From positions 1-64,000 of the forward strand of contig NZ_JABMCQ010000004.1 in assembly GCF_013179575.1 (NCBI RefSeq): a DNA stretch of 64,000 bases, written 5' to 3'. The position numbers and the translations under genes were made by a program. The notes under the pieces were generated by a model that saw only the letters and a program-made list of their open reading frames with translations, was not told where the DNA came from and ran no database searches. Source of the DNA: Sphingobacterium shayense (lineage in GTDB: Bacteria > Bacteroidota > Bacteroidia > Sphingobacteriales > Sphingobacteriaceae). This document shows positions 45,461-58,407 of the stretch, in pieces. Within the stretch, counting starts at the first letter, position 1; the number at the start of each line of letters is the position of its first letter.

Positions 45461-46291
45461 TTAAGCCTTTATAAATAGTTTTGCAATATTTAACACTGCA
45501 TCCGCTGTTAATGGTTCATCAAATGATTCTGTTGCTGCATTTGCTGAAATTTTCCCCATCTGTCCGCTTAGTGTGGTAATATCGACACCAGCCTGGGATT
45601 TGTTGTCTTCACCGGCATAAATCGGATCTACAACTGCACCTATTCCACTGTCATTCGCACCGGTTATCCATGGCTTTTGGTCTGCCGCACCACCGCCACG
45701 CGCTCTGCGCATTTGACGAATATGTGCCGCATGCCGAGCTTCAACGGAATGGATTTGCAGGGCCGCTGTTAAAACAACCTTATTTCCTACAAGGATACCC
45801 GCTTGTCCTTTATACGCCCTCACACCGGTATCCTCAAATGCCTGCGCTAGTGCTAAGAAGGTGTCATAATCACTGAAAACATTGGCAAATGTACCTCCTG
45901 CAGTGAAATCAAAAGTCGGTTTTGATACCGCTTTAGAACCCAAAACAGTTTTTAAGAATGCAACGTGAGCGACTTCATGGTCACGGATCGTCTGAATAGC
46001 GCCTTGAGGTTTTCCTGAAGGCACAAGTCCCGATTTTGCAGCTCCCATTGTATAGTACTCAGCCTCGAGGTACTCCAATGTTAGCGCATAGTTCAAAACG
46101 CCATTGACATCTGTTGGCGTTGCGCCATACGCCTTTTTAAAAAGGGCACTAATAAAAAAGGGCGCTGCTGCTAATGAAACTTTCTTTCCAAATGAAGCCA
46201 TATTTCGGATGGCCTCTCTGCGGGGACTAATGCGATCGTTAAATTCAGGATCGACTTTATTAATTTCTTCAAATATCGTTAATATATTCAT
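45461..46291 (-). CDS. Ferritin-like domain protein
   Basis: A 276 aa four-helix-bundle protein of the ferritin-like (Ferritin_2) type. Probable metal ligands occur in LTLEYLEAEYYTMGA, IRDHEVAHVAFLK, FEDTGVRAYKG and HSVEARHAAHIRQMR, the usual E, ExxH, E, ExxH layout. Residues 27-49 (IRNMASFGKKVSLAAAPFFISALFKKAYG) look like an internal export signal after a basic stretch. It follows a paralogue by 18 bases in the same operon. A role in metal storage or oxidative stress is inferred from the fold only. Confidence 0.78.
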   Translation of the reverse strand: MNILTIFEEINKVDPEFNDRISPRREAIRNMASFGKKVSLAAAPFFISALFKKAYGATPTDVNGVLNYALTLEYLEAEYYTMGAAKSGLVPSGKPQGAIQTIRDHEVAHVAFLKTVLGSKAVSKPTFDFTAGGTFANVFSDYDTFLALAQAFEDTGVRAYKGQAGILVGNKVVLTAALQIHSVEARHAAHIRQMRRARGGGAADQKPWITGANDSGIGAVVDPIYAGEDNKSQAGVDITTLSGQMGKISANAATESFDEPLTADAVLNIAKLFIKA

Positions 46292-46309
46292 GATAGTAAT
46301 TTTTAAAAG

Positions 46310-47017
46310 TTAGTAAGTTGGAAGGTCTGACACATCGATTTTTGACTTAATAAATGGGGCTGCAGCTTGAATCACGACTGTAGGACTGTTTGCTACGTCT
46401 AGTCCGTTCGCGTCAACCACTTCTGCATTAGCGAAGCTTCCATTATCAATCAAATCCCTGATTAGCGCAGCATGGCGTGCCTCTACAGAAACAATTTTGC
46501 CCGCTAATAGTAGATAATTAGGTTCTTTAATAAGCCAGCCGGCGCCGTTATAGGCTGAAACACCGAGATCTTCAAAGGTTTTGGCAGTAGCCAGTACGTT
46601 GCTGCGGTCAGAAAACTTAATAGCGGAGAGGTTAAACTCGAGGCTAGCTATTGCGTTGTTACCAAGTGCTTTTTTGAAAAACTCACGGTGTGCAATTTCG
46701 TGGTCACGTATATCTGTGAAATAAGACTTCTCCAGAGCAGTAATTCCCGAATATGGGTTATTAACTACTTCGATATAGAAAGCCGCTTCTAGCTGCTCTA
46801 ATGCATAAGCATAATTTAGAATGGCAATGTCACCACTCCCAAAATAAAACTCGTTGCCGCCCATATCTGGTCCTCTGTCATCATCTTTATCACACCCAAA
46901 GGTGCTTAATAAAGCGACAGAACCGAGGCCAGCACCGGCATATTTTAAAAACTCTCTTCTTTTGAGGTCTTGATGACCGTTTACCAACGAGTCATTGTCC
47001 AATGTCTTTCTTTTCAT
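46310..47017 (-). CDS. Ferritin-like domain protein with Tat-like/lipoprotein signal
   Basis: A 235 aa paralogue of the neighbouring gene. The N-terminus LKRREFLKYAGAGLGSVALLSTFGC carries a twin arginine and a possible lipid-attachment cysteine, so the protein is exported. Ligand-type residues recur in ALEQLEAAFYIEVV, IRDHEIAHREFFKKALG, FEDLGVSAYNGAG and VSVEARHAALIRDL. It is the first gene of the two-gene unit converging on the sigma/anti-sigma operon; this sigma, anti-sigma and ferritin-like grouping suggests envelope stress control of the pair. Confidence 0.8.
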   Translation of the reverse strand: MKRKTLDNDSLVNGHQDLKRREFLKYAGAGLGSVALLSTFGCDKDDDRGPDMGGNEFYFGSGDIAILNYAYALEQLEAAFYIEVVNNPYSGITALEKSYFTDIRDHEIAHREFFKKALGNNAIASLEFNLSAIKFSDRSNVLATAKTFEDLGVSAYNGAGWLIKEPNYLLLAGKIVSVEARHAALIRDLIDNGSFANAEVVDANGLDVANSPTVVIQAAAPFIKSKIDVSDLPTY

Positions 47018-50008: not shown

Positions 50009-52459
50009 CTATTCATCTCTTAAGCTGGTTACCGGGTTCATTCTAGCTGTTTTAAAGGCATGATAGCAAATAGTGCCTGCGGCAATAAAAAGGCTTATGG
50101 CACCTGCCAGAATAAACACCCAATATTTTATTTCAATCCTATTGTTAAAGTCTTCAAGCCAAGCGTGCATTACCCACCAAGCAAATGGCACGGCAATAAG
50201 AATAGCCACTAAAACGAGTTTTAGAAAATCGATAGAAAGTAATTTGATTATTTTAGTGACAGTAGCCCCTAAGACTTTTCGAACGCCAATTTCTTTTGTC
50301 CTTTGTGCTGTGATAAATGCAGCGAGTCCGAACAAACCTAAACATGCGATAAAAATGGCTACAAAGGCAAACGAAGTAAAAATAGTTTGCGTCTGTTTTA
50401 CATCGGAGTACAAGGCGGAAAAATTATCATCTAGGAAGCTAAACTGAATTTTTTGATTGGGAGAGAATTCATCCCAGATATCCGTTACTTGCGAAATGGT
50501 TCCTGCCATATCCAGTGAGCTAACTTTAATAGATATTAAAGAGGGACTATTACCTAATACGAGACTAACTGGACGTACTGCTTCTGCTTCGCTTCGCATA
50601 TTATCAAAAATAAAGTCTTCAACAACTCCAACAACCGTTCTTGTTTCGCCATTGAATATCTTCGATCCAATCGGATTTTTGAGACCAAGTTCTTTAACCA
50701 TTTTCTGGTTGATAATGGTTCCACTAGAATCCGTTGGCATATCAAAACTCAAATTCCGTCCTGCGACTAAATTCAATCCATAGGTTGAAATGTAGTCTTG
50801 ATCAATTATCCAAAATTGGCCAGGTTTACCATCGTCTTCAGATTGTTTTCCATCTTGCCAGAAGGGATTGCCGTTCCTACGGCTTCCTACCATATCTACC
50901 GGGACATAATCTCCTATAGACACGCTGTGGACATTCGATATTGTCTTTAATTGTTCTTTGAAAGATTTAATCTGTTTACCGAGCGTGTGAGTACCATGAA
51001 GCATCAAAACCTGATCTTTATTGTATCCTAGGTCTTTGTTCATTAGAAAATTCATTTGTTGATGAATGATTATTGTTCCGATTATCAGCGTAATCGAGGT
51101 GACAAATTGAAAAATGACTAGGCTGTTTCTGAAGCCGCCGGAACTTTTCGAATGTAAGACCTTGCCTTTTAAGATTGATATAGGTTTAAATCTTGATAGG
51201 AAAAGCGCAGGGTAAATTCCGGATAACGCACCCAAGATAATAGCCCCTAGGAGCATAATGCCAATAAATTGTAAATTGAATAAGGGGATAGAAAGCGACT
51301 TACCCGCTATTTGGTTAAACAAAGGCAGTAAAATAATGGTGATGAGAAGCCCTAAAAAGACCGAAATGGCACAATAGAGAAATGATTCTGTGAAAAATTG
51401 ATAAATTAAGGACTTACGGCTGGATCCGATTGTTTTCCTTATACCAACTTCTTTCGCTCTAACTGCAACATTAGCCGTTGTTAAGTTAATAAAGTTGATG
51501 CTAGCAATGAGTAAAATGAATATTGCTATTCCAGCAAAAATCCATACTATTCGAATATCTCCACGATTTTGTACTGAGACTTTATCATCGTGAACGTCCT
51601 TCGAATGTAGATGAATTTGATTTACAGGCTGGAGGGAAATAAATGATTCTTTAACCATTGGATTGACGGTCCTTCCTGCCATCTTTATCGAAGGAATGTA
51701 ATGGTCTTCAATATATGTTTTCGTTAACTGGCCTTCTAGTTGATGTATATCGGTGCCCGATTTTATTTTAAAATATGTGGTATAATTACTGGAAATCCAA
51801 TTTTGCTGTTCGCCATCATAGAAGTTTATTCCGGATAGGGTTAAGAATATATCGTACCCAAATAAATGGGAGTTATGCGGTATATCGGCTAAGACCGCTG
51901 TGATCTCATATGGATTCTGTTTATCGTTATTTAAATAAACTACTTTACCAACAGGGTTTCCTTTAAATAGCAATGCAGCTTTACTTTTGCTAAGGACCAC
52001 TGTGTTAGGCTTATCTAATGCGTTTTTTAAAGAACCGTAAACAGCAGGTATTGGAAACATATCCAAAATAGATTGATCCGCATACACGAAACCTGACAAT
52101 GATTGGTTTACAGGATTTTCGTCAGTTGTTACTTGATTATTCCCAGCTCCGAAAAGCGAACTCGGCAAAATTCTTCCCGACTCCAAAATCGTGGGGTAGG
52201 TCTCCTTCATAGTCGGGCCTGCAGGAGCCGGAAAGGAAGTGCCACGCTCAATACCAGACTCTTTTTTGAAATTCCCCAGCATCCTAAAGATCTGTTCTTC
52301 TTCTGGGTAAAATTTGTCATAGCTTAATTCATGCTGAACAAATAAAACGATCATAATACAGACAGCAATACTAAAAGCAAATCCTCCAATTTTAATGGTC
52401 GAAAAGAGTTTTTGTCCCTTGAGGTTGCGCCACGCTAGTTTTATGTAATTTTTGAGCAT
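50009..52459 (-). CDS. FtsX/MacB-type ABC transporter permease
   Basis: An 816 aa inner-membrane permease. The layout is N-terminal helix (IKIGGFAFSIAVCIMIVLFVQHELSYDKF), MacB periplasmic domain, first FtsX block (IVWIFAGIAIFILLIASINFINLTTANVAVRAKEVGIRKTIGSSRKSLIYQF), a second periplasmic domain, and a second FtsX block near the C-terminus (FVAIFIACLGLFGLAAFITAQRTKEIGVRKVLGATV). No ATPase gene adjoins. A sigma-54-type promoter and two palindromic upstream sites precede it. Homologues export peptides or lipoproteins, or respond to envelope stress; the cargo here is unknown. Confidence 0.88.
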   Translation of the reverse strand: MLKNYIKLAWRNLKGQKLFSTIKIGGFAFSIAVCIMIVLFVQHELSYDKFYPEEEQIFRMLGNFKKESGIERGTSFPAPAGPTMKETYPTILESGRILPSSLFGAGNNQVTTDENPVNQSLSGFVYADQSILDMFPIPAVYGSLKNALDKPNTVVLSKSKAALLFKGNPVGKVVYLNNDKQNPYEITAVLADIPHNSHLFGYDIFLTLSGINFYDGEQQNWISSNYTTYFKIKSGTDIHQLEGQLTKTYIEDHYIPSIKMAGRTVNPMVKESFISLQPVNQIHLHSKDVHDDKVSVQNRGDIRIVWIFAGIAIFILLIASINFINLTTANVAVRAKEVGIRKTIGSSRKSLIYQFFTESFLYCAISVFLGLLITIILLPLFNQIAGKSLSIPLFNLQFIGIMLLGAIILGALSGIYPALFLSRFKPISILKGKVLHSKSSGGFRNSLVIFQFVTSITLIIGTIIIHQQMNFLMNKDLGYNKDQVLMLHGTHTLGKQIKSFKEQLKTISNVHSVSIGDYVPVDMVGSRRNGNPFWQDGKQSEDDGKPGQFWIIDQDYISTYGLNLVAGRNLSFDMPTDSSGTIINQKMVKELGLKNPIGSKIFNGETRTVVGVVEDFIFDNMRSEAEAVRPVSLVLGNSPSLISIKVSSLDMAGTISQVTDIWDEFSPNQKIQFSFLDDNFSALYSDVKQTQTIFTSFAFVAIFIACLGLFGLAAFITAQRTKEIGVRKVLGATVTKIIKLLSIDFLKLVLVAILIAVPFAWWVMHAWLEDFNNRIEIKYWVFILAGAISLFIAAGTICYHAFKTARMNPVTSLRDE

Positions 52460-52485
52460 AAATATTAACTAATTTAAACAAAAAA

Positions 52486-52501
52486 TGCAATCCGTCTGCC
52501 A
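52486..52501 (-). promoter_or_regulatory. Sigma-54-type promoter (-24/-12)
   Basis: On the minus strand TGGCAG ACGGA TTGCA matches the sigma-54 consensus TGGCAC-N5-TTGCA at all but one fixed base, with the GG to GC spacing correct. It lies 27 bases upstream of the permease start, leaving a 5' UTR of about 17 nt. Confidence 0.62.
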
Positions 52502-52554
52502 TTTTTATAAACACTTGTGTATGAGTCTGTTTTAGTTTATATCAAGCCAAAGTA

Positions 52555-52591
52555 TGTTCATTATTGAACAGTTCTCGTTCATTAATGAACG
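52555..52591. promoter_or_regulatory. Paired enhancer-like palindromes, 21-bp phased
   Basis: TGTTCATTATTGAACA (52555-52570) and the perfect palindrome CGTTCATTAATGAACG (52576-52591) have centres exactly 21 bp apart, two helical turns. They lie 55-90 bases upstream of the -24 element, the normal place for sigma-54 enhancer-binding-protein sites. Confidence 0.58.
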
Positions 52592-52729
52592 GTTGTTTTG
52601 TATGCCCTAAAGATTATAATCGTCGGGGTAAGCATTTGATCCTATTGCCGAAGTTTGACTTCGCAAATTGTTCATTAATTGTTACGCGAGTTTCGTTTTT
52701 TATTCTACTAACCGCGCTGTCTAGCTAGC

Positions 52730-55138
52730 CTAAGTTTCTCGTAATGATTTGACAGGATTAACTCCCGCGGTCCGGATAGCTTGCCAACCAACCGTAACTA
52801 TCGCTATTAATAAAGCGGACGATCCTGCGATGGCAAATATCCACCATTGGATACTGATATGATAAGCAAAATCTGCTAACCATTTATTCATTGCTAACCA
52901 TGCAACCGGTGTTGCTATTACTATGGCGAGAATAACTAATTTGATAAAATCCAACGTCAGTAAATGTACGATACTCAAAGTTGTTGCTCCTAGAACTTTT
53001 CTTACTCCAATTTCTTTGGTTCGCTGTTGGGCCGTGTAGGTTGCTAGTCCTAAAAGCCCTAAACAGGCGATGAAAAGAGCTAATCCAGAAAACGCTGTGA
53101 ATAATCGTTGGAAACGGAAATCCTCTTCATATTGGCGATTAAAACTATCATTTAAAAAACTGTAAGTAAATGGCCTATTGGGTGCAATTTGACTCCACGA
53201 CTTCTTGATATTAGATACAGTCTCCCCGATATTTTCCGTTTTTACCTTTAAGGTGAAATATCTGCTACTATACGGATCTACCATTAAAGTTAAAGGCTCA
53301 ACCTGTTGGTGTAGGGAGCGATAGTTGAAGTCTTTGACTACCCCAATAACTTGTCCTTCACGTCCCCATTGTCTATATCGTTTACCTATAATATTTTTCG
53401 GGTCCACAAATCCATATGCTTTTGCTGCTGCTTCATTAACAATTAATGAACTTATTGTGTCGACGGGGAAATCCCTTGAGAAAGCCCTTCCGGCTGCTAA
53501 TTCAATACCAAAATGGTTTATAAAATCAATATCCACCTGGAATATGGATTGTGTTAAATTAAGAAAAGCACCTTCCGAGGTTTCGATATCTGTTCCTGCA
53601 TCGGGGTAGTAGGCACCAGGCACACTCCGAGAAGCTGAGATCGAGGTCACATTGGGATTACTTAGGAAAAGCTGCTTAATGGTTTCGGTTTTACTATTGA
53701 TGTTATTATCATAATTAAAATCAAGAACTAGCATTTCTTCTTTGGTAAATCCTAAGTTTTGGTGCTGTAAATGCTTTAATTGTTTAAACACAATCAATGT
53801 CCCGGCAATAAGGGTAATAGATAGAAAAAATTGGAATACTACCATTACTCTTCGAATGGTAATTCCTGAAGGGGCTCCCTTAAACGAACCTTTCAATACA
53901 GCTGTAGGTTTGAAACTAGATAAGACAAATGCTGGATAGATGCTTGCGAGCAGTGCAGTAGTTGAGATGATCGACAAAAATAAAATAAAAGTTTTCCAGT
54001 TAAGGATAGCAGACAGAGAGAACGTTTTACCTGTAAAGTTTTCTGTGATTGGGAGTAATAAAAGTAACATGAGCAGGGCTACCATGGTTGCTAAAAGGAC
54101 CAGCAGGAGGGATTCCTGGATAAATTGAAATATCAAACTTTTTTTATTTGCTCCCACGACTTTCCTGACCCCGACTTCCTTCGCACGTTCCATAGACCTA
54201 GACGTTGCTAAATTCATAAAATTGGCACAAGCTATGCAAAGAATAAATAGGCCAATGATAGCGAAAATATATAGGTTTTGTAAATTTCCCGTCGTGCCGG
54301 GTTGTCTTTCAGCTTTGGAATATAAGTATATGTCCTGTAAAGGTTCAAATCGAAATGAATACTGGCCATTTGTTGATGCTTTATGCCGCTCTAGAAAAGC
54401 TGGTATTTTAATCTCTAAATCAGCAATATTAGCGTTTTTTGCTAATACGAAGTACGTATAAAAGTCTACATAACCCCATTGATAAAAAGGGTCTTGCCAA
54501 GATTGTCTGAAGGAACTCATCGACATTAGGGCATCAAAGGTAAAGTGTGAGTTTGCAGGGACATCCTTTATTATCCCCGTAACTTTATATATCCCCTTTG
54601 CAGCACGACCTCCGGTTTCACCTCCCTCGATAGCTTTTCCCATCGGATCTTTCTCACCAAAATACCTTCTCGCAGTTGTTTCTGTCAACACGACAGAAAA
54701 GGGAGCTATCAAAGCTGTTTTAGGATCACCCTTAATCATTTCCCAGCTAAAGACATCGAAAGCGGTTGAGTCGATGAAAAAGATTTTGTCTTCTTGAAAA
54801 GACTTTTCACCATGTTTTAATAAAACAGAGGATTGGCCAGAGAACTGGACTATTTTTTCGATTTCTGGAAACTCAGTTTTAAGGGCGTTGCCTACAGGAG
54901 CGTTCCCCCAAACTTGATCAGGACCAGCTCTTCCTGCCTGATCTTTCCAAGTATGAACCACTCTGTATATTCTCTCCTTACTCGAATGATATTGATCAAA
55001 AGATAACTCATCAATGATATAGAGACTGATAATGAAACTACATGCTAAGCCTATAGCTAACCCTACGATATTTACTAGCGTATATCCTTTGTTTTTTGCT
55101 AGGTTTCGCCAAGCGATTTTAAAGTTATTTCGAATCAT
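52730..55138 (-). CDS. FtsX/MacB-type ABC transporter permease
   Basis: An 802 aa paralogue of the downstream permease, with the same order: N-terminal helix (LVNIVGLAIGLACSFIISLYIIDELSFDQYH), periplasmic MacB domain, first FtsX block (IFAIIGLFILCIACANFMNLATSRSMERAKEVGVRKVVGANKKSLIFQF), second periplasmic domain and a second FtsX block (LALFIACLGLLGLATYTAQQRTKEIGVRKVLGATTLSIVHLL). The 270-base gap and separate promoter elements suggest the two genes are transcribed independently. The cognate ATPase is not in the window. Confidence 0.88.
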   Translation of the reverse strand: MIRNNFKIAWRNLAKNKGYTLVNIVGLAIGLACSFIISLYIIDELSFDQYHSSKERIYRVVHTWKDQAGRAGPDQVWGNAPVGNALKTEFPEIEKIVQFSGQSSVLLKHGEKSFQEDKIFFIDSTAFDVFSWEMIKGDPKTALIAPFSVVLTETTARRYFGEKDPMGKAIEGGETGGRAAKGIYKVTGIIKDVPANSHFTFDALMSMSSFRQSWQDPFYQWGYVDFYTYFVLAKNANIADLEIKIPAFLERHKASTNGQYSFRFEPLQDIYLYSKAERQPGTTGNLQNLYIFAIIGLFILCIACANFMNLATSRSMERAKEVGVRKVVGANKKSLIFQFIQESLLLVLLATMVALLMLLLLLPITENFTGKTFSLSAILNWKTFILFLSIISTTALLASIYPAFVLSSFKPTAVLKGSFKGAPSGITIRRVMVVFQFFLSITLIAGTLIVFKQLKHLQHQNLGFTKEEMLVLDFNYDNNINSKTETIKQLFLSNPNVTSISASRSVPGAYYPDAGTDIETSEGAFLNLTQSIFQVDIDFINHFGIELAAGRAFSRDFPVDTISSLIVNEAAAKAYGFVDPKNIIGKRYRQWGREGQVIGVVKDFNYRSLHQQVEPLTLMVDPYSSRYFTLKVKTENIGETVSNIKKSWSQIAPNRPFTYSFLNDSFNRQYEEDFRFQRLFTAFSGLALFIACLGLLGLATYTAQQRTKEIGVRKVLGATTLSIVHLLTLDFIKLVILAIVIATPVAWLAMNKWLADFAYHISIQWWIFAIAGSSALLIAIVTVGWQAIRTAGVNPVKSLRET

Positions 55139-55228
55139 GGTCTCACAGTTAATTTTGCTGATAAAAGCATTAGAGTTCGTTATACACTTGTAGTATTCTG
55201 AACTATTCGGCTCTCGCTATTTCGGCGT

Positions 55229-55244
55229 TCCAATTACATTGCCA
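55229..55244 (-). promoter_or_regulatory. Sigma-54-like promoter, imperfect
   Basis: On the minus strand TGGCAATGTAATTGGA has the -24 TGGCA and a -12 TTGGA in place of TTGCA, with correct spacing. The -12 mismatch is at an important base, so by itself this is weak; the upstream phased sites raise its credibility. Confidence 0.4.
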
Positions 55245-55297
55245 GATGCGTAAATAGCTGATTTGTAATTTTTTACTTGGTGCAGGTGTCGATGAGG

Positions 55298-55334
55298 TGT
55301 TCATAATCGAACAAATTTCGTACGAAACCGAACA
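55298..55334. promoter_or_regulatory. Paired enhancer-like sites, 21-bp phased
   Basis: TGTTCATAATCGAACA (55298-55313) has TGTTC/GAACA arms like the site at 52555-52570. A degenerate copy, CGTACGAAACCGAACA (55319-55334), begins exactly 21 bp later and keeps the right half. Both lie upstream of the sigma-54-like element for the second permease. Confidence 0.48.
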
Positions 55335-55497
55335 TTGAACCGCCCGTTAGTTTATAAAAATGCTGCCCCGTCCGTAATTAACTATGCAACTTGCCAAAGA
55401 TTTATCAATAGCTATATGGTGAGTCGCGTTTGAGATAAAAAGCCTTTGATTAAAAGTTGGTTTTAAATTAGTAAGCATCAAAAAGAATAATCAACTT

Positions 55498-56643: not shown

Positions 56644-58407
56644 TTATAACAAATAAGCTTCGACGTTGGTGCCGGATAGAACTGTTACCGCTTGCTCAGG
56701 GATAATAATAAGACAGTTTGCCTGTGCGTAGGATTGTAAGCGGTAAGAGTCTTGAGCATGTAATTGTATTAACTCCTCGCCGTTATAGCTGCCTTTCAAA
56801 AAGTGAGTGAGTCCCTCTTTTTTATGGTAATTGCCCCTAATGGGCGCTATAATTTTTTTTATACGGGGTGGCACCCGCATTAACTTTTCCAGCGCTGGCG
56901 CTGCATATAGGTAAAAACAGGTTAAAGTTGACGATGGATTTCCCGGAAGCCCGATAACCAGTTTTTCCCCCTTATTACCAAAAAACAAAGGCTTACCCGG
57001 CTTTTGACGGATCTTATGAAACTGTTGCTCAATACCACATTTTTTTGTCGCTGTGGCCACGAAATCATAATCTCCGACACTCACGCCGCCTACCAATAGC
57101 AGCATATCAACGCGTGCTAGAGATCTTTCTATTGCAGTTTCTAAGTGCTCTAAATTATCGGGAATATGCAAAACCTCAACGTCATTAATGCCCAATTGGG
57201 TTAAAGCGGCACTTAACTGATATGAATTTGACTCGTAGACTTCTCCAAATCCCAATTGTTCGCCTGGCGGTATGAGTTCGTCACCGGTAAGGATAATAGC
57301 GACTCGGGGCGTGCTGTATGTATCTACATGAGTGCATCCGATCCCCGCTAGATAGCCAATCGCAGCAGGAGTTAGGAAGGTGCCGTCTTGTAAAGCCAAC
57401 GCACCCTTTTTGACCTCAGAACCTCTAGCACGAATGTTATCGCCTTGCCGCAGGTTTTGATCTTTTACCCAAACAGATCTATTTTTAGTTACCTGCACCT
57501 TTTCTTGCATGACCACGGTGTCAGCTCCGATGGGTAAAGGAGCGCCGGTAAAGATTCTCATGGCGTTACCGCGTGATAAAGTTTTTTGCATGGTCATCCC
57601 AGCCGGTATGGTGCCGACAACTTGTAACTCTAGTTCTCGATCTTCGTAATGGATTGCGTAGCCGTCCATGGATGATTGTTCAAAATTAGGAATCGAAAAT
57701 TGAGCGTAGACATCTGATGCTAGCGTGGAACCAAGCGCGTCCTGTATTCGTACACCCCTAGCTTTTTGCGGTTTTGGTAACAGGGAATCTATGATTTCTT
57801 TTGCTGTATCCACGCTTACCATTGTCCGTGGTGCATGCTGATGACGTAGATTGTGTTCAGATTCCGTTTCTCCCAGAGGGAGTATAGCAATATCGTCTGG
57901 TTGTTTCGCAATGATGTCGTTTATTCTTTGATGACCATCATCGGAAAGAAGCTCATCGAAAAACCTTTTTGAGAAAAGGACCGGAAGATCCCATATTTCT
58001 GCAATCTTTGTCGCGATTATTCCTTTGCCAGTCTTATCGGCTAGGGACTTAAGCTCGTTAAACAAATTGATATTTATAAAATGTCGATCACTAGCACATA
58101 TGATACACTGTTCCAGATCCGGAGTTGCGTTAAGTAAAGATTGAAGTCCCATTTTGATCGAACTCGAGATGCCGTTTTTCCAATTTGTATTAATAATTGT
58201 TTCGGTCGAGTTACCGGCTAATTTCGCTTGGAGTGTTTTCTGCAAGGGGTTCAGGACAACTACGACACAATGTCCTGAATGAACAGAAGGTTCCACTGTT
58301 AGATGTTTAACCAAGCTTTTTTTATCGGAAGCCACTGCGTACTTCGGTCTATCTCTCCCCGTATATTCTTCTACGGCCAATATAACTATACCTGTCTTTT
58401 TTGTCAT
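56644..58407 (-). CDS. MobA-like / MoeA molybdenum-cofactor fusion with degenerate NTP-transferase motif
   Basis: A 587 aa cytosolic fusion. Residues 1-190 have the fold of MobA/MocA nucleotidyltransferases, but the signature GxxxRMGxxK loop is degenerate (VILAVEEYTGRDRPKYAV, 8-25) and the later AxxxDQP becomes CASDRHFI. From about residue 196 a complete MoeA follows: SMDGYAIHYED, GDELIPPGEQLGFGEVYESNSYQL, LVGGVSVGDYDF, QKPGKPLFFG and GLPGNPSS. MoeA inserts molybdate into adenylylated molybdopterin. The N-terminal part may have lost catalysis and serve a regulatory or structural role. No other cofactor gene is adjacent. Confidence 0.82.
   Translation of the reverse strand: MTKKTGIVILAVEEYTGRDRPKYAVASDKKSLVKHLTVEPSVHSGHCVVVVLNPLQKTLQAKLAGNSTETIINTNWKNGISSSIKMGLQSLLNATPDLEQCIICASDRHFININLFNELKSLADKTGKGIIATKIAEIWDLPVLFSKRFFDELLSDDGHQRINDIIAKQPDDIAILPLGETESEHNLRHQHAPRTMVSVDTAKEIIDSLLPKPQKARGVRIQDALGSTLASDVYAQFSIPNFEQSSMDGYAIHYEDRELELQVVGTIPAGMTMQKTLSRGNAMRIFTGAPLPIGADTVVMQEKVQVTKNRSVWVKDQNLRQGDNIRARGSEVKKGALALQDGTFLTPAAIGYLAGIGCTHVDTYSTPRVAIILTGDELIPPGEQLGFGEVYESNSYQLSAALTQLGINDVEVLHIPDNLEHLETAIERSLARVDMLLLVGGVSVGDYDFVATATKKCGIEQQFHKIRQKPGKPLFFGNKGEKLVIGLPGNPSSTLTCFYLYAAPALEKLMRVPPRIKKIIAPIRGNYHKKEGLTHFLKGSYNGEELIQLHAQDSYRLQSYAQANCLIIIPEQAVTVLSGTNVEAYLL

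Follow-up and report, generated by a model that had tools for sequence, protein, structure and literature searches.

Introduction

In MacB, the ATPase and the permease are fused in one chain, and the Bce-type modules of Firmicutes combine an FtsX permease with an intramembrane-sensing kinase. To our knowledge, little is known about the role of the many duplicated FtsX permeases of Sphingobacterium or about the function of sigma-54 in Bacteroidota. Here we describe two FtsX-type permease genes, and the paired palindromes upstream of each, in a 64,000-nucleotide stretch (the window) of Sphingobacterium shayense contig NZ_JABMCQ010000004.1 (handle G000:C295), part of a 4.46-Mb draft genome. We consider it highly probable, at roughly 0.88, that the two permeases are satellites of a sigma-54 regulon switched by an NtrC/AtoC-type response regulator (RR) via these phased pairs. 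The RR is encoded at a hub locus on contig C292 of the same genome, together with a kinase, TolC, MacA, an ATPase and permeases.

The hub RR resembles activators of the NtrC/AtoC/ZraR type in its receiver, sigma-54 AAA+ and Fis-type helix-turn-helix (HTH) domains and in the paired palindromic upstream sites, but it does not reach the NCBIfam cut-off of any of the AtoC, ZraR, NtrC or PEP-CTERM response regulator models, and it differs in its GAFTDA loop, in the degenerate -12 of the associated promoters and in the distance between pair and -24, which is in most cases fixed at 53-54 or 63-64 bp, whereas typical sigma-54 enhancers are more distance-tolerant. The window permeases cover most of the ADOP model (TIGR03434), with two FtsX stretches and no ATPase alongside, yet score 270 and 297 bits (206 and 296 for the other two permeases scanned), all below the cut-off of 622. 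Like DarBCD and MacAB-TolC, the hub has an adaptor, a permease, an ATPase and TolC. Unlike those systems, it has several duplicated permeases; its ATPase reaches 306 bits to DarD (cut-off 375), its adaptor 179 to DarC (cut-off 450), and the best DarB score among the four permeases scanned is 144 (cut-off 700). The hub also differs from MacB in that its ATPase and permease are separate, and neither window permease has an ABC domain. The hub kinase may be likened to those of Bce-type modules in having an N-terminal hairpin with little or no loop and in lying beside FtsX permeases, but the hub permease build differs and the RR is NtrC-type.

Enrichment of sigma-54 promoters before COG0577 FtsX-like permeases, class Bacteroidia included, has been reported and called first evidence (PMC12316311, PLoS One 2025); the accessible part of that paper mentions neither the activator nor the paired enhancer, its phasing or the layout of hub and satellites discussed here. 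No published account of these four features was found in the open-access literature searched. A statistical link between sigma-54 promoters and FtsX-like permeases is already known, while a regulon of an NtrC-type activator and sigma-54 in which the enhancers are close and fixed in phase, the -12 is relaxed and satellite permeases surround a hub appears new. Its enhancer code (pair, phasing and TGGCA) makes the regulon drawable in other genomes and connects orphan permeases with a single machine under a single regulator. Its promoters offer a natural set for studying how sigma-54 activation depends on helical phasing and how far it tolerates changes in the -12.

Results

Both window genes lie on the minus strand, permease 1 at 50009..52459 (816 amino acids, aa) and permease 2 at 52730..55138 (802 aa), and both are orphan duplicated FtsX-type permeases with MacB_PCD and FtsX matches, which bears out the two FtsX-type open reading frames (ORFs) of the original prediction. 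The domain scan retrieved no match to an ABC ATPase anywhere in the window, nor in the C68 and C317 permease loci of the same genome. The candidate -24/-12 element of permease 1 (52486..52501, minus strand) reads TGGCAGACGGATTGCA and has GC at -12; that of permease 2 (55229..55244, minus strand) reads TGGCAATGTAATTGGA and has a non-canonical -12 with GG in place of GC. Each gene is further preceded by two palindromes of the form TGTnC-N6-GnACA, the predicted enhancer sites, which for permease 1 are the promoter-proximal site A (52555..52570, TGTTCATTATTGAACA) and site B (52576..52591, CGTTCATTAATGAACG) and for permease 2 site A (55298..55313, TGTTCATAATCGAACA) and site B (55319..55334, CGTACGAAACCGAACA). 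The centres of A and B are 21 bp apart at both genes, and in both promoters the edge of site A lies 54 bp from the T of the TGGCA that supplies the GG at -24.

These elements and pairs sit where the original prediction had placed them, although several of its descriptions need adjusting. The two pairs agree more closely in their distance to the promoter than the 55-100 bp upstream first given. The spacing of exactly 21 bp holds at both window pairs but not across the family, where it is 20-22 bp. The first -24/-12 element had been called good, and its canonical sequence is indeed present, but this is exceptional, the family -12 being usually degenerate. Zero-mismatch TGTTCN6GAACA sites occur twice in the window, both times within the pairs; with up to 2 mismatches, 47 single sites were found there against 31.3 expected, so that a single site alone is weak evidence.

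A search of the S. shayense genome for the fixed 21-bp-spaced pair with up to 3 mismatches returned 22 distinct places, against 12 for a reversed-pattern control; 15 of the 22 were inspected at locus level and 7 were not. Pairs with 0-1 mismatch were limited to the two in the window and C68:21360, which precedes an orphan 800-aa permease and has a TGGCA distance of 44 bp, one turn shorter. Three more had 2 mismatches, one of them (C292:9561) before the MacA operon of the hub. The two window pairs, C68:21360 and C292:9561 all lie outside open frames of at least 100 aa; among the other 11 inspected places, 10 are inside an open frame and one 3-mismatch place (L017) is outside. At C317, a spacing-22 pair with TGGCA at 52 bp lies before the permease. 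Single-FtsX genes were considered as further targets and rejected, no pair being found before them at the 6 loci checked (best pair score at most 13.5 at all 6).

The original prediction had anticipated a single enhancer-binding protein common to both genes and an AtoC-like response regulator near some of the paired sites, and one of the best pair matches does sit at an NtrC/AtoC-type RR locus: the C292:9561 pair precedes genes for MacA, a permease, an ATPase and further permeases, divergent from TolC, the RR and the kinase. A second C292 pair, with spacing 22, faces TolC and has TGGCACG at 53 bp, and a further pair, with spacing 20 and no TGGC after it, lies before the fourth permease of the hub. 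The RR (C292:6660-8015) contains a receiver (PF00072), a sigma-54 AAA+ domain (PF00158) and a Fis-type HTH (PF02954), all over cut-off, and has the only DNA-binding domain among ten hub-locus proteins scanned. Its sigma-54 interaction domain is intact, with a loop that reads GAFTDA rather than GAFTGA, as it does in 14/14 aligned RRs. Homologues 50-85% identical to it occur in at least 80 named Bacteroidota loci, the nearest named relatives being those of Sphingobacterium (84-85%). The S. shayense genome carries an rpoN gene and four strong sigma-54 activator matches, with loops GAFTGA (C14), GSFTSA (C168), GSFTGA (C63) and GAFTDA (the hub RR), besides five weak matches. By simple hydropathy, the hub kinase is membrane-bound and begins with a hydrophobic hairpin that leaves hardly any loop in the periplasm. 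The same method assigns two N-terminal hydrophobic segments to 50 of 82 kinase ORFs, three to 7 and one to 25, and the gap between the first two segments is at most 11 residues in 55/57.

Spacing and phasing were assessed in a scan of all loci for pairs scoring at least 16 in which promoter features were not used; many of these loci had been obtained via the pair itself, and 13 via the promoter pattern. The scan yielded 132 distinct pairs with spacings of 20 bp (6), 21 bp (110) or 22 bp (16), and one pair at each of seven further spacings in the range 12-45 bp, a histogram in which spacing 21 is favoured by the fixed 21-bp search patterns behind many of the loci. At the named RR loci plus three loci of the S. 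shayense genome, spacings 20, 21 and 22 were found 5, 17 and 11 times, spacing 10 four times, and any other at most once. TGGC falls 42-45, 52-56, 62-66 or 73-77 bp from 121/132 of the pairs, where about 18 would be expected at 1/256 per position, and these bins, at about 43, 54, 64 and 75 bp, represent one helical face. Of the TGGCA occurrences 30-90 bp from a pair, 115/120 are in the four bins, against 4/12 for TGCCA, and the pair-TGGCA distances have a vector strength of 0.84 at period 10.5. Some of the TGGCA at 74 bp in the first phasing set are -12 overlaps (TTGGCA); in the later phasing count, a TGGCA that followed another by no more than 12 bp was left out. Among FtsX promoters alone, TGGC lies at 43-44 (2), 52-56 (26), 63-65 (5) or 74 bp (3), so the permeases are placed at different whole turns. 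In a sample of the phylum, the pair was present in 34/296 genomes and control matches in 4. Loci drawn from this sample have TGGC in the narrow bins in 17/29 cases and in slightly wider bins in 20/29; 7 of the remaining 9 are inside ORFs, and 2 lack a phased TGGC.

The -12 was tallied over 102 distinct promoters, for which TGGCA was a precondition of counting. Matches to T11, T12, G14 and C15 numbered 73, 73, 72 and 23, and TTG begins at position 11 in 28/102 promoters and at position 12 in 18/102. Both the -24 and the distance to it are therefore regular, in contrast to a relaxed -12, a laxity that may belong to this activator with its GAFTDA loop or to Bacteroidota sigma-54 in general. An exact canonical -24/-12 scan (TGGCAN6TTGCW) was discarded as a means of finding the regulon in the S. 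shayense genome, where its 13 matches fell below the 29 of a reversed control; the -24/-12 alone is for this reason uninformative there. The shortfall hints at a scarcity of canonical sigma-54 promoters in this genome.

Read from the phased TGGC, the target genes are MacA (40), FtsX (36), TolC (26), RR (7), ABC (2) and other (11), with none in 3 cases; the recurrence of paired sites ahead of other FtsX permeases, proposed at the outset as a check, is seen in many genomes, and extends to exporter genes. Absence of the pairs upstream of orthologues had been named as grounds for abandoning the prediction. A pair precedes 7/8 of the permeases that are first in their unit (upstream gap >250 bp) and 4/71 of the operon-internal ones (Fisher 8.7e-7), loci L253-L264, selected by the pair, being excluded from the count. 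Three of these genes, the two in the window and C68, had come to attention through their pairs, so the figure with them removed, 4/5, is given separately. Homologues of window permease 2 are present in 49/60 genus genomes, and those with any carry at least 4-18 duplicated FtsX permease matches per genome. Among the permease 2 homologues examined, the S. shayense gene itself and those of L274, L275 and L300 have the pair and the other 26 do not; the pair-less ones listed start at most 217 bp from an upstream exporter gene.

Two other kinds of gene were found downstream of pairs. At L072, L074, L075 and L076 (genus g3), a pair lies 63-99 bp before a gene for an extracytoplasmic function (ECF)-type sigma factor, a call that is based on Sigma70_r2/r4 in L072 and L074 and on similarity by eye in L075 and L076, suggesting that a sigma-54 to ECF cascade may operate in this genus. 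At L081, L082 and L237 (genus g2), a pair and its phased TGGC lie before the gene of a small DUF2807 (head-GIN) protein, and L093, L244 and L269 contain ORFs similar in length to these DUF2807 genes.

We surveyed 151 genomes of the order, counting pairs at up to 1 mismatch and RRs at E<=1e-80. The pair was found in 77/151 genomes and the reversed control in 4, with one match each; together with the 22 against 12 places in the S. shayense genome, this supports the initial view that the matching spacing is not due to chance. The RR was found in 130/151. In genus g1, pairs are present in 19/19 genomes with the RR and in 0/8 without it (Fisher 4.5e-7), a co-occurrence that represents module linkage and not proof of which protein binds, because the 8 genomes without the RR also gave no match to the window permease.

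Across the named Bacteroidota loci and S. shayense, Sphingobacterium included, a TGGCA-anchored search found a phased pair upstream of MacA in 36/53 cases, compared with 1, 0, 0, 0, 0 and 0 of 53 for six control anchors. In the named loci of Mucilaginibacter, Chitinophagaceae and Flavobacteriaceae, right half-sites are phased to TGGCA and the left half-site is the longer TGTATC/TGTAAC, the shift to which, in the MacA upstreams of L158-L212, follows lineage. A strict TGTnC score was tried on the named-locus MacA promoters and dropped, being no better than its control (19/52 versus 17/52 at score >=13), a failure that appears to be caused by the longer half-site. RRs with the recognition helix TRAALYR accompany short/short half-sites in 7/11 cases, and those with TRTALYR accompany long/long half-sites in 15/21 and short/short in 0/21. 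The RRs of genus g2 are TRAALYR with short sites, but the g2 loci were selected by a short-site pattern, and the RRs of genus g12 (TRT) pair with short sites, a counterexample. A tie between helix type and half-site type is suggestive only, and it is confounded by ancestry.

Discussion

From the genes, sites, spacings, phasing, co-occurrence and synteny seen in the sequences, we infer a regulon that would operate as follows. The hub kinase would phosphorylate the neighbouring RR, which would bind as paired dimers at two TGTnC-N6-GnACA sites separated by two turns of the helix. With the pair 53-54 bp from TGGCA, or roughly a turn nearer or farther, the activator would always be held on the same side of the DNA, from where it would remodel the sigma-54 polymerase. 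One RR would in this way control both the hub (TolC, RR and kinase on one side, MacA, permease, ATPase and permeases on the other) and the scattered permeases, which have no adjoining ATPase gene and presumably depend on the ATPase, the adaptor and the outer-membrane channel of the hub, possibly in the export of, or defence against, envelope-active compounds.

A number of observations weigh against this regulon. The GC of the -12 is not conserved (C15 in 23/102, TTGC in register in 1/102), and exact canonical promoters were fewer in the S. shayense genome than control matches. No phased TGGC accompanies 11/132 pairs, and the phasing bins were chosen after seeing the data and later widened on overlapping data. 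The phylum-sample promoters are not independent, as the pair sequence is identical in five of the 20. A phased pair is missing from 17/53 MacA upstreams. Among the 20 RR-less genomes listed in the order survey, G016 and G046 carry pairs; many g3 genomes have the RR and no pair at up to 1 mismatch; and no window permease match was found in the 8 RR-less g1 genomes.

The degenerate -12 and the joint loss of RR and permeases in those g1 genomes would also fit palindromes that serve a different dimeric regulator as operators, be it a repressor or an activator, with TGGCA part of a promoter that does not use sigma-54, since a third protein of the module could then be the one that binds. We regard this as improbable: even in distant taxa the pair is found at the locus of the RR itself, the RR is the sole protein with a DNA-binding domain among those scanned at the hub, and an enhancer-binding AAA+ protein would require just such helical phasing to TGGCA. 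It is less probable still that the RR binds the pairs but acts through the main sigma factor, with TGGCA belonging to the operator. Such an arrangement would account for the unconserved C and near-absence of TTGC at the -12, and for GAFTDA in place of GAFTGA. However, GAFTDA has been listed with the loop variants that would keep activity (PMC4641369). The RR also retains its intact sigma-54 interaction domain, and TGGCA followed by T-rich bases and G14 (72/102) resembles a relaxed -24/-12. Matches to an E. coli-type sigma-70 promoter near the window promoters numbered 11 against 9.9 expected, a weak point because Bacteroidota promoters differ from that consensus. Chance palindromes in AT-rich intergenic DNA, for which the mild enrichment of single sites in the window (47 versus 31.3) could be cited, are refuted for the family of sites by the reversed-pattern controls in the genome, order and phylum, by the spacing histogram (132 at 20-22 bp versus one each at seven others), by the TGGCA phasing and by the gene specificity of the targets.

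Returning to the sigma-54 regulon, a broader and considerably more speculative picture, which we put forward tentatively, is that it forms a Bacteroidota-wide envelope-defence circuit. Its permeases would export, and perhaps sense, envelope-active compounds, and a loop-less kinase would signal through the RR to relaxed--12 promoters with a helix-side-locked enhancer pair, the satellites sharing one ATPase-adaptor-TolC machine.

Two further features of the window lie outside the permease region. The minus-strand gene at 56644-58407 encodes a single 587-aa protein in which a MobA-like nucleotidyltransferase domain is fused to MoeA, and two adjacent Ferritin_2-domain genes are located at 45461-47017, also on the minus strand.

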